NCBI RefSeq assembly: GCF_000518085.1
Contig: NZ_JACX01000001.1
Location: 248,001-312,000 of the forward strand
Source of the DNA: Bartonella grahamii ATCC 700132
Lineage (GTDB): Bacteria; Pseudomonadota; Alphaproteobacteria; Rhizobiales; Rhizobiaceae
Length of the DNA: 64,000 nucleotides
Direction of reading: 5' to 3'
How positions within the stretch are numbered: position 1 is the first letter of the stretch; each line of letters begins with the position of its first letter. Positions 45,875 through 49,163 of the stretch are shown here, in pieces. The notes under the pieces are model-generated. The model did not search any database. It was not told the DNA's origin and was given only the letters and a program-made list of their open reading frames with translations. Both the position numbers and the translations under genes were made by a program.

Positions 45875-46531
45875 ATGGCGCGTTTACCAGCAAGACTTTT
45901 AAGTGGTTACCAAAATTTTATAAACAATCATTTTTTATATAAAATAGCACATTATCAGCAATTGGCGACTGAAGGGCAGAAACCTGAAGTTTTGGTCATT
46001 GCTTGTTGTGATTCGCGTGCAGTGCCAGAAATGATTTTTGATGCTAAGCCAGGGGAAATCTTTACCTTGCGCAACGTGGCAAATGTGGTTCCTCCTTTTT
46101 CTCCTGATGATCAATATCACGCAACATCAGCAGCTCTTGAATATGCTGTACAATTGCTCGAGGTGAAACATATTGTCGTTTTTGGTCATGCCCATTGTGG
46201 AGGCATTCGTACTGCTCTTAAGGAGACATGTAAATCTTTATCATCAAATGATTTTATTGGTCAATGGATAGGTCTTTTAGCACCAGCAGCAGAAATCGTT
46301 TTGAATAATAAGTCGCTGTCTTGGCCAGAAAAACAGACGGCATTAGAGCAGCTTTCTATTCGCCATTCGTTGAGAAATTTAGAGACGTTTCCGTGGATAA
46401 AGCTTCGCAAAGATCAAGGTTTTTTGACATTGCACGGGGTTTGGTTTGATATCTCTAGCGGGAAATTATGGAGTATGGAACAGGAAACAGGTTGTTTTAT
46501 GCGTGTTGAAGTTGAAAGTTTTGAAGTATAG
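45875..46531 (+). CDS. Beta-class carbonic anhydrase
   Basis: Interconverts CO2 and bicarbonate, supplying carboxylases. A 218-residue protein with zinc ligands Cys44 (in ACCDSR, with the Asp46-Arg48 dyad), His105 and Cys108 (in GHAHCGG). EIFTLRNVANVVPP and HATSAALEYAV are standard blocks. The start ATG at 45875 has AAAGAGAG upstream. The gene lies between the glutamate dehydrogenase and ffh as a single unit. Confidence 0.93.
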   Translation: MARLPARLLSGYQNFINNHFLYKIAHYQQLATEGQKPEVLVIACCDSRAVPEMIFDAKPGEIFTLRNVANVVPPFSPDDQYHATSAALEYAVQLLEVKHIVVFGHAHCGGIRTALKETCKSLSSNDFIGQWIGLLAPAAEIVLNNKSLSWPEKQTALEQLSIRHSLRNLETFPWIKLRKDQGFLTLHGVWFDISSGKLWSMEQETGCFMRVEVESFEV

Positions 46532-46580: not shown

Positions 46581-46609
46581 TTGACAAAGCTGGGGTTTTA
46601 TTGTTTGAA
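46581..46609 (+). promoter_or_regulatory. Possible sigma-70 promoter before the ffh leader
   Basis: TTGACA at 46581-46586 matches the -35 consensus perfectly. A TTTGAA at 46604-46609 is 17 nt further on but is a poor -10; a TTATTG at 46599-46604 is another choice. It would start transcription near 46617, just before the structured leader. The call rests on the -35 alone. Confidence 0.35.
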
Positions 46610-46639
46610 GGAGCAAGCTTTCAGTGACAAAATTAACTT

Positions 46640-46735
46640 GGAGCCACCGACTGAGACCCCAGTTTAAGGGTATAAAGAGATCTCAGAGGTCAACATCCGA
46701 CGGCGCGATGCGTTCTCGGATGCTATTTTGGTTTG
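46640..46735 (+). ncRNA. Structured leader upstream of ffh, two hairpins
   Basis: The 200-bp gap before ffh contains a first element in which CTGAGA (46651-46656) pairs with TCTCAG (46681-46686) around an inner CCC/GGG stem, and a second element in which CATCCGA (46694-46700) pairs with TCGGATG (46716-46722) around a G+C-rich loop, followed by a T-rich stretch. This part is much more G+C-rich than other spacers in the window and ends about 35 nt before ffh. It is not the SRP RNA: the conserved SRP tetraloop and asymmetric loop are missing. A regulatory leader or small RNA is inferred. Confidence 0.45.
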
Positions 46736-46761
46736 TTTGTTATGCAACAATGAGGTAAATG

Positions 46762-48330
46762 ATGTTTGAATCCTTGCAAGAGCGACTTGGTTCTATCCTG
46801 TCTCATTTGACGGGACGTGGCGCTTTATCGGATCAGGATGTTGTAGAGGCGCTGCGTGAAATTCGTCGCGCTTTATTGGAAGCTGATGTTGCTCTTGATG
46901 TTGTACGCTCTTTTACCGATAGGGTTCGGGAAAAAGCCGTTGGGGCCGAAATCGTTAAATCAATTAAACCGGGCCAGATGGTGGTTAAAATTGTTCATGA
47001 TGAATTGGTTCATATTCTTGGAAATGAAAGCGTTCTGAGTGATTTAAATGCACCAGCTCCAGTTGTTATCATGATGATTGGTTTGCAAGGTTCCGGAAAA
47101 ACAACTACAACAGCAAAGCTTGCGAAACGGTTCACTGATAAGCACCATAAAAAAGTTCTTATGGCGTCATTAGATACACGTCGTCCCGCTGCACAGGAGC
47201 AGTTGCGCCAATTGGGAGAACAGGCGAAACTTGCAAGCTTGCCTATTATTGCGGGGCAGCTGCCCGTTGATATTGCATCACGTGCCGTGCAGGCTGCTAA
47301 ATTGGGTGGTTATGACGTGCTTCTTCTTGACACAGCAGGACGTAATCATATTGATGAAGCTTTGATGCTCGAATTGGCTGAAATTAAAGCATGTTCCCTT
47401 CCTCATGAAATTATGTTGGTGGCTGATAGTTTGACAGGGCAAGATGCCGTTCATCTTGCTCGTTCTTTTGATGAGCGTGTAGGGATTACAGGGATTATTT
47501 TAACACGTATGGATAGTGATGGGCGTGGTGGTGCTGCTCTTTCTATGCGTGCGGTTACAGGTAAACCAATTAAAGCAATTGGAACTGGTGAAAAAATAGA
47601 TGCTTTAGAAGAGTTTCATCCCAGCCGTATTGCTGATCGTATCCTCGGAATGGGGGATATTGTTTCTTTGGTTGAAAAAGCTGCTGAAACAATGGATCAT
47701 GAGAAAGCTGCTGCTTTTGCAAAAAAAATGCAAGCCGGAAAATTTGATCTGAATGATCTTGCAGAACAGTTGCAGAAAATGAAAAAACTGGGTGGAATGG
47801 GCGGTATTATGGGCATGTTGCCAGGAATGGGGAAGGTCAAAGAGCAGATTGCGGCTGCGGGGCTTGATGATCGTTTGTTTGATCGTCAATTGGCCATTAT
47901 TTCATCTATGACACCGCAAGAGCGGGCGAATCCAGAGCTTTTAAAACATAGTCGCAAACAACGAATTGCTAAGGGATCTGGTACAACGGCAGCTGATATT
48001 AATAAACTTTTGAAAATGTATCGCCAAATGGCTGATATGATGAAAGCTATGGGTGGTAAAGGAAAAAGTGGTTTTATGGGAAAAATGTTGGGAGGACTTG
48101 GTTCCAAAATGGGTTTTGGTGGTATGGGAAATTTGGGGGGGAATTCTTCAGCTATGCCTGATTTGTCGGGATTGGATCTAAAGCAATACTCAACACTTCA
48201 AAAGCAAATTGAAAATGGTAATGGAGGGAAGCTCTTGCCCGGACTTCCCAAGCGTGGACCTACATTTCCTGGTCTTTCCAATGACATTGCTGATAGGGGA
48301 AAATTTCCTCAGCATCCTAAGAAAAAATAA
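46762..48330 (+). CDS. ffh: Signal recognition particle protein Ffh
   Basis: SRP54 homologue that binds signal sequences of nascent membrane proteins with 4.5S RNA and docks on FtsY. The N domain (1-85) starts FESLQERLGSI, the G domain has GLQGSGKTTTTAKLA (P-loop), DTRRPAAQEQLRQLG, LLDTAGR and TRMDSDGRGGAALS, and the Met-rich M domain runs from about 325 (MGMLPGMGK, then Gly/Met repeats). Length is 522 residues. The ATG at 46762 has GAGG six nt upstream; the ATG three nt earlier would be too close. Chorismate mutase and rpsP follow, as in other Rhizobiales. Confidence 0.94.
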   Translation: MFESLQERLGSILSHLTGRGALSDQDVVEALREIRRALLEADVALDVVRSFTDRVREKAVGAEIVKSIKPGQMVVKIVHDELVHILGNESVLSDLNAPAPVVIMMIGLQGSGKTTTTAKLAKRFTDKHHKKVLMASLDTRRPAAQEQLRQLGEQAKLASLPIIAGQLPVDIASRAVQAAKLGGYDVLLLDTAGRNHIDEALMLELAEIKACSLPHEIMLVADSLTGQDAVHLARSFDERVGITGIILTRMDSDGRGGAALSMRAVTGKPIKAIGTGEKIDALEEFHPSRIADRILGMGDIVSLVEKAAETMDHEKAAAFAKKMQAGKFDLNDLAEQLQKMKKLGGMGGIMGMLPGMGKVKEQIAAAGLDDRLFDRQLAIISSMTPQERANPELLKHSRKQRIAKGSGTTAADINKLLKMYRQMADMMKAMGGKGKSGFMGKMLGGLGSKMGFGGMGNLGGNSSAMPDLSGLDLKQYSTLQKQIENGNGGKLLPGLPKRGPTFPGLSNDIADRGKFPQHPKKK

Positions 48331-48351: not shown

Positions 48352-48684
48352 ATGATGCAGGAAACAGTATTAAACGAATTGGCACATTTACGAGCATCTA
48401 TTGATAATTTTGATGCAACTTTGATTCATATCTTAGCAGAGCGTTTTCGTTGTACGAAAGCTGTTGGGCGCTTAAAAGCGCGTTATGATTTGCCTAAAGT
48501 AGATCCTCTGCGTGAGCAACATCAGGTAGAGCGTTTGCGGCAATTGGCTATAGATAGTCATCTTGATCCTGATTTTGCTGAAAGATTTTTAAAATTTATT
48601 ATTAAAGAAGTTGTGCGTCATCATGAAGTTATTGCTGAAGAGCAAAAAACAAAAAAAGTTAATTTAAACGAAAGCCAGAGCTGA
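48352..48684 (+). CDS. Chorismate mutase, AroQ type
   Basis: Converts chorismate to prephenate for Phe and Tyr synthesis. A 110-residue all-helical protein with LRASIDNFDATLIHILAERF at the N-terminus, KAVGRLKA (active-site Lys), and DPLREQHQVERL and FIIKEVVRHHE further on. It is a free-standing enzyme that would feed prephenate to the tyrC product encoded at 20690-21619. It lies 21 nt after ffh and 16 nt before rpsP, so the three are probably one operon. Confidence 0.9.
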   Translation: MMQETVLNELAHLRASIDNFDATLIHILAERFRCTKAVGRLKARYDLPKVDPLREQHQVERLRQLAIDSHLDPDFAERFLKFIIKEVVRHHEVIAEEQKTKKVNLNESQS

Positions 48685-48700
48685 CAATAGGAGATAAAAT

Positions 48701-49075
48701 ATGGCATTGAAAATTCGTTTGTCCCGTGGAGGTTCAAAAAAACGTCCTTACTATCATATCGTCGTTGCAGATGTTCGTAGTCCGCGCGATGGGCGGTTTC
48801 TTGAACGTGTTGGTGCATGGGATCCAATGTTGCCTAAAGATGGACCGAGGGTGAAACTTAATGAAGAACGTATCCAATATTGGCTTGGGCAAGGGGCACA
48901 ACCAACAGATCGCGTTTTACGGTTTTTAGATGCAGCTGGCTTGAAAAAGCGTCCAACCCGTAATAATCCACATAAAGGTGAACCGGGTAAAAAAGCACAA
49001 GAACGTATAGAAGCAGCAAAGCAAGCGGCAGAAGAAGCAGCGGCAACGGCTGAAGCAGAATCTGCTTCAGCATGA
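48701..49075 (+). CDS. rpsP: 30S ribosomal protein S16
   Basis: Small-subunit protein of 124 residues. The conserved N-terminal block [20 protein letters not shown] is followed by [13 protein letters not shown] and [23 protein letters not shown]. An Ala/Glu-rich tail of about 40 residues is typical of alphaproteobacteria. In relatives rimM, trmD and rplS come next; here rpsP is the last gene before a terminator. Confidence 0.95.
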
Positions 49076-49129: not shown

Positions 49130-49163
49130 ATCCGTTTTTGTCTATCAAAAACGGATTTTCTTT
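49130..49163 (+). terminator. Rho-independent terminator after rpsP
   Basis: An 11-bp perfect inverted repeat, ATCCGTTTTTG (49130-49140) and CAAAAACGGAT (49146-49156), with a 5-nt loop, followed by TTTTCTTT. Located about 55 nt after the rpsP stop, it should end the ffh-chorismate mutase-rpsP transcript. Confidence 0.85.

Follow-up and report, generated by a model that had tools for sequence, protein, structure and literature searches.

The ffh motif of alphaproteobacteria was described as a single bulged hairpin ahead of ffh to which no function was assigned (Meyer et al., 2009; PMC2704228). In its published description the motif carries two nearly invariant cytosines, and it was reported from all Rhodobacterales, Sphingomonadales and Rhizobiales sequenced at that time and from no Rhodospirillales or Caulobacterales. 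An RNA-seq study of Bartonella bacilliformis counts an expressed “ffH leader RNA” among the sRNAs of that species (PMC7717549). From Mesorhizobium huakuii, an RNA (MH_s5) in an intergenic region labelled Pb (apparently a plasmid) has been annotated as RF01793, the Rfam family of the motif (PMC5596092).

Leaders of ribosomal-protein operons provide a second point of comparison. They are bound by a protein encoded in their own operon—stated to be true in all known cases—and likeness to the 16S rRNA site is noted for some of them only (PMC7247131). The same paper proposes an S16 leader candidate in Flavobacteria, likewise a structured leader of rpsP, usually with rimM, though from another phylum and compared here by description only; the word ffh is absent from its main text. 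A 2024 review calls rpsP-rimM-trmD-rplS a rare ribosomal-protein operon about whose regulation there is no information (PMC10931766), and among the open-access papers listed by our searches none links the ffh RNA with S16.

Here, we analyze the leader ahead of ffh in a 64,000-nt stretch of the Bartonella grahamii ATCC 700132 genome (hereafter “the window”), together with related leaders from its genus, family and class. The window RNA is itself already known, being the same element as RF01793 in identity, position and P2 hairpin (Table 1); its fuller structure, range and likely partner are new. Compared with the published single bulged hairpin, we add a preceding hairpin (P1), recast the bulge as a C.C mismatch plus a covarying position, roughly double the range in our class sample and add a family in which rpsP stands in place of ffh.

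Results

The window leader and its gene line

Two hairpins had been placed between the TTGACA box and the ffh start in an initial annotation of the window, and both were found there (Table 1). The same annotation held that the segment stands out in composition from every other spacer. It is G+C-rich (54.7% over 46640-46725 vs 38.2% window-wide) but ranks second among the 28 stretches of at least 86 nt free of cover by an ORF of 100 aa, the higher one being a stretch with a tRNA gene. The leader also has a named match, which the initial annotation could not give: against the Rfam covariance models it scored 55.3 bits with RF01793 (“ffh”), over the gathering cut-off of 35, and it lies ahead of a Pfam-confirmed ffh in an alphaproteobacterium. 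When the short leader region alone was searched at E-values up to 10, only two eukaryotic families appeared besides RF01793, far below their cut-offs, so that no other Rfam family came near its cut-off. The leader gave no match to the bacterial small SRP RNA (RF00169), Ffh’s cellular partner, which is undetected where the leader persists (see below). Elsewhere in the window, a group I intron (RF00028) was matched at 500-703 on the minus strand (66.3 bits).

Table 1. Features of the leader and its gene line, in window coordinates.
Feature	Position	Strand	Basis or remark
Carbonic-anhydrase gene	45875-46531		bounds the leader spacer on the side away from ffh
-35 box TTGACA	46581-46586	+	sequence; TTGAC kept upstream of related leaders
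Putative -10 TTTGAA	46604-46609	+	17-nt spacer, weak; predicted start near 46615-46618
P0, weak first hairpin	46624-46644	+	minimum-energy fold of the window leader
P1	46646-46690	+	ACC-GA-CTGAGA (46646-46656) with TCTCAG-A-GGT (46681-46690); RNAalifold and covariation
P1 inner arms CTGAGA / TCTCAG	46651-46656 / 46681-46686	+	sequence
RF01793 “ffh” match	46679-46730	+	P1 3' strand (unpaired in that model) and P2
P2	46694-46722	+	7 bp, C46701.C46715 mismatch, G46702.U46714, 4 bp, loop GAT
P2 outer arms CATCCGA / TCGGATG	46694-46700 / 46716-46722	+	sequence
Downstream TTTG box	46732-46735	+	part of model R1
Shine-Dalgarno-like GAGG	46752-46755	+	sequence
ffh (SRP54 GTPase and SRP_SPB domains)	46762-48330	+	Pfam; ORF start at 46759 also possible
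Chorismate mutase type II gene	48352-48684	+	21 nt past ffh
rpsP (ribosomal protein S16)	48701-49075	+	16 nt past the chorismate mutase gene
Hairpin and T run, likely gene-line terminator	49130-49159	+	by eye

The promoter box is a conserved part of the layout. TTGAC occurs within 160 nt upstream in 156/158 leaders (29/29 from Bartonella, 55/57 from the family, 58/58 from other groups and 14/14 from the marine family f51 described below), as against 13% in mononucleotide shuffles. Because this box is conserved upstream, transcription is predicted to start ahead of both hairpins and, as far as a predicted promoter can tell, not downstream of 46722, the position that the initial annotation had given as its test; a generic promoter scan of the window did not list the weak -10 TTTGAA promoter. 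In leaders that precede ffh, the interval between P2 and the start codon spans 16 to 292 nt. Of the 158 leaders, 72 have TTTT in the 8 nt that follow P2 (11/29 Bartonella, 34/57 family, 22/58 other, 5/14 f51) and 86 do not, and the window P2 is not among the six terminator-like sites found by a terminator scan of the window.

The line of ffh, chorismate mutase and rpsP genes ends at a hairpin with a T run, located outside the stretch that the terminator scan covered, and beyond it lies an opposite-strand ORF. In the window genome, rplS is found at contig position 317912, about 21 kb beyond rpsP; it is thus apart from rpsP, unlike in the contiguous rpsP-rimM-trmD-rplS order of locus L173 (see below).

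Two covarying hairpins

The 81-nt segment holding P1 and P2 folds at -28.5 kcal/mol, compared with -19.6 +/- 3.1 for its shuffles (z -2.88; 2/200 as good); positions 46640-46735 give z -2.20 (7/200 as good), and the longer stretch 46610-46775 folds unremarkably (z -1.01; 26/200). Applied unprompted to 68 leaders from the window’s family and genus (alignment A1), RNAalifold drew both P1 and P2, and 15 of the 20 pairs carry double changes. The first of the two originally annotated hairpins is real: in A1, 8 of the 9 P1 pairs show double changes, 97.4% of cells are paired, and covariation reaches 0.396, compared with 0.192 in shuffles (0/500 as high) and at most 0.116 when the helix is slid. P2 covariation is 0.308 against 0.111 shuffled (0/500). 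The CTGAGA/TCTCAG arms of the window differ from the common CCGGGA/TCCCGG at two pairs, where both strands have changed to give A-U. Shuffle controls of this kind do not remove relatedness, and the alignments share ancestry; as covariation of P1 and P2 beats the shuffles, we regard the element as more than chance.

Outside the family, P1 takes a different form. Among 19 leaders of other groups that were picked by eye for a local P1 (set A2), it is a short-looped hairpin of 5 bp, with a covariation of 0.882 vs 0.286 shuffled; in this selected set the count of doubly changed pairs is ordinary (263/500 shuffles reach it), the other four measures being out of the ordinary. RNAalifold on 55 mixed class leaders recovered P2 only, and on the f51 leaders it left P1 unplaced. 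In single-sequence folds, P2 forms in 29/29 Bartonella, 57/57 family, 48/54 other and 14/14 f51 leaders. In 29, 50, 42 and 14 of these, respectively, it is accompanied by a helix of 5 bp or more whose end lies no further than 6 nt from P2; 42-50% of shuffled upstream sequences yield such a helix. These folds and the promoter and T-run counts exclude leaders whose matches or flanks are short, and the 55-leader set and the other-group P2 set omit some duplicates and odd-length matches.

P2 is the more uniform hairpin. Over 81 leaders from all groups its covariation is 0.511 vs 0.167 shuffled, and its mismatch is C.C in 80 of them and T.C in one. The adjoining position is A.C in 53, A.A in 9, C-G in 9, G-U in 7, U-A in 2 and G-C in 1; as this neighbor is mostly A.C, and a standard pair in 19/81, we prefer to interpret the 2x2 bulge in the Rfam model as a single C.C mismatch plus its neighbor. 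TTG is found inside the 3' tail in 77/81 leaders.

Other foldings were considered and set aside. A local GATCT-CAG-AGGTC hairpin drawn by eye in the window as an alternative P1 gives way to the long P1 both in the fold and in RNAalifold; P0, present in some folds, was left unplaced by RNAalifold on A1; and an upstream ORF within P2 (ATG in GCGATGCG) is, by eye, not conserved across groups. Two further pairings were seen by eye, neither of them in Bartonella: a CUCCG/CGGAG alternative in some family members, and, in several family members (L003, L012, L015, L064 and others), CCTTC/ACCTC-type bases between P2 and the ffh start, close to the latter, with the potential to pair with the Shine-Dalgarno sequence.

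Distribution across alphaproteobacteria

At E <= 0.001, RF01793 matched 61/61 genomes of the genus, 58/61 of the family sample and 75/289 of the class sample (59/289 over its own cut-off), and 0/14 control genomes in each of the genus, family and class searches. A lack of conservation beyond Bartonella and of covariation, which the initial annotation had named as evidence against its leader, is thus the reverse of what we observe: conservation is wide and covariation strong.

We then used a model (R1) that adds the TTTG box and a better P2. Built from 81 leaders, many of them from these same genomes, R1 matches 170/289 class genomes at the E-value at which RF01793 matches 75/289, and by this comparison the RNA is far commoner than catalogued; 119/289 class genomes are without an R1 match, although S16 is present in 272/289. 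The wider reach of R1 is made believable by the positions of its matches ahead of ffh or S16. Among the R1 matches listed, 75 places are not RF01793 places, and one RF01793 place (G067:C63) was examined alongside them. For 64 of these 76 the Ffh M domain or S16 lies downstream on the same strand by coordinates, and for 11 of the remaining 12 tblastn finds ffh downstream, the last, G067:C63, being at a contig end; all 75 of the R1-only places among the matches listed are therefore upstream of ffh or S16. An S16-anchored sample—the top 80 among 421 relatives of the S16 from f51, and so biased towards that protein’s kin—gave R1 in 75/80 loci, each upstream of rpsP and on its strand, and three of the five misses have less than 1 kb of sequence before rpsP. 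With R1, the two loci titled Robiginitomaculum reach 26.6 and 32.4 bits; RF01793 does not report them at its own cut-off.

Two genes recur downstream. ffh follows the element in 145/149 first loci, the exceptions being three loci with rpsP (L055, L097 and L103) and one whose sequence ends 58 nt past the match (L107). Of the RF01793-positive class genomes, 69/75 have rpsP downstream, a tally of 36 by listed place, 31 by tblastn and two f51 genomes. By listed S16 place, the gene is on the same strand 53-5078 nt downstream of the element in 36/38 class genomes; by tblastn, S16 was found in 31/33 class stretches (38/40 with seven extra family stretches). As for the other six genomes, in five the sequence stops at a contig end (G232, G067, G159, G081 and G336) and one assembly is without an S16 match (G290). 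ffh is also present in nearly all rpsP-linked carriers, and f51 alone separates the two genes.

A marine family without detectable SRP

The family f51 (OCS116/PS1 clade) comprises 18 genomes in our sample (G109, G234, G330 and G409-G423). At L055, L097 and L103 rpsP lies directly downstream of the element and dapF is divergent upstream; the genomes concerned gave no match to the window Ffh in a search that returned Ffh and weaker FtsY-like matches from other genomes. RF01793 detects the element in 14/18 genomes of the family, and rpsP starts about 26-33 nt after it in all 14 carriers (L097 and L103 are second copies of two of these 14 loci). The gene order in L173 is mtaB-like, dapF (divergent), element, rpsP, rimM, trmD, rplS and leuC-like—the first and last named by eye—and ffh does not intervene between the element and rpsP. 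The one gene that this arrangement and that of the window share downstream is rpsP.

The family is also devoid of recognizable SRP components. PF00448, the GTPase domain that Ffh and FtsY have in common, was over cut-off in 0/18 f51 genomes (one sub-threshold match) vs 14/14 controls, and the SRP RNA (RF00169) was matched in 0/18 vs 11/14 controls, nine of these over cut-off. Both protein genes and the RNA are missing in 18/18, which is hard to put down to assembly gaps; in the six genomes that are near-complete (at least 90% complete, at most 5% contamination) neither PF00448 nor RF00169 was found, and five of the six have the element. The loss was probably a single event in one family, and we found no report of it for the OCS116/PS1 clade in the open-access literature; in another alphaproteobacterial group, the Rickettsiales, a signal recognition particle protein is said to be absent (PMC3264578). 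Across the class sample, 31/289 genomes had no match to SRP_SPB (PF02978), including some nearly complete ones in which S16 is present (e.g., G135, G170 and G190).

The structure has persisted in this setting. P2 is 100% paired in the f51 leaders, with double changes at 2/11 pairs and a covariation of 0.245 vs 0.157 shuffled (0/500), the count of doubly changed pairs being no more than in shuffles (228/500; 12 distinct rows). We read the fully paired, covarying P2 as a sign of selection on structure after the loss of SRP. P1 support here comes from single-sequence folds, which predict a helix beside P2 in 14/14 leaders vs 43% of shuffles.

Discussion

We put at about even the chance that the ffh RNA serves the S16 operon as its 5' leader, which free S16 would bind so as to lower expression, most likely via translation. 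The element is a structured, covarying 5' leader, and rpsP, the gene of the putative ligand, lies in the same predicted gene line, as is expected of a ribosomal-protein leader. Given the rule that such leaders are bound by a protein of their own operon, and given that rpsP is common to both gene arrangements, S16 is the best candidate for a ligand. The operon, namely ffh, chorismate mutase and rpsP in the window and rpsP-rimM-trmD-rplS in the OCS116 record L173, would be transcribed with its leader from the conserved promoter. The leader would present a variable hairpin, P1, followed by the more conserved P2 with its constant C.C, usually stacked on an A.C pair. Free S16 would bind this P1-P2 unit and thereby reduce operon expression, most likely through a block to translation initiation. 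Translational control is favored because fewer than half of the leaders have TTTT after P2 and the window P2 is not terminator-like. Because P2 lies at such varied distances from the start codon, the Shine-Dalgarno sequence cannot be directly occluded in every leader, and a translation block, if any, would not work by one fixed overlap.

The role suggested in the initial annotation, a regulatory leader for SRP protein synthesis, holds as to the structured leader and fails as to SRP in general, the f51 element standing before rpsP. Autoregulation by SRP, with Ffh or the Ffh:4.5S balance acting on the leader to control ffh, would fit the near-constant presence of ffh downstream, and a role in ffh regulation was put forward as possible with the original motif (PMC2704228). 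Yet that description also finds the motif unlike the site that Ffh has on 4.5S RNA, and the element survives, its P2 fully paired, ahead of rpsP in a family where Ffh, FtsY and SRP RNA all go undetected, so that SRP sensing cannot be its general role; we reject it as such and consider autoregulation improbable overall. Ffh is unlikely to be an obligatory ligand, and control of the S16 operon is a likelier role for the element than control of the SRP protein. Survival before rpsP is also compatible with an element that binds no ligand and serves mRNA stability, processing or translation enhancement, with selection for structure only. This reading fits the same data as the S16 proposal and accommodates the TTGAC-P1-P2 layout with its variable distance to the start codon; the near-invariant C.C and the restricted pairs beside it, however, resemble a recognition surface rather than a simple stabilizing hairpin, and we think it rather unlikely.

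The T run after P2 bears on two further readings. In 72 leaders a G+C-rich P2 has TTTT in the next 8 nt, as would suit a transcription attenuator with P2 as its terminator, but the run is missing from the other 86 and the window P2 escaped the terminator scan; with no constant T run this reading is rejected, and we regard it as highly improbable. The same inconstancy speaks against a stand-alone, trans-acting small RNA, as does the location of every listed R1-only place upstream of ffh or S16. Such an RNA would agree with the Rfam type (“Gene; sRNA”) and with the inclusion of the “ffH leader RNA” among B. bacilliformis sRNAs (PMC7717549), and we judge it to have only a small chance of being correct.

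Returning to the S16 leader proposal, we suggest tentatively, with somewhat less than even confidence, that “ffh RNA” is a misnomer for what may be an S16-sensing leader of the alphaproteobacterial rpsP operon, ffh being merely its usual first gene. This would be shown up by a marine clade in which the SRP pathway (Ffh, FtsY and 4.5S RNA) is undetected and the leader is kept on rpsP. The SRP-less clade thereby joins two questions, the function of the ffh motif, posed in 2009, and the regulation of the rpsP operon, and two proteins and a single RNA would suffice to test both.
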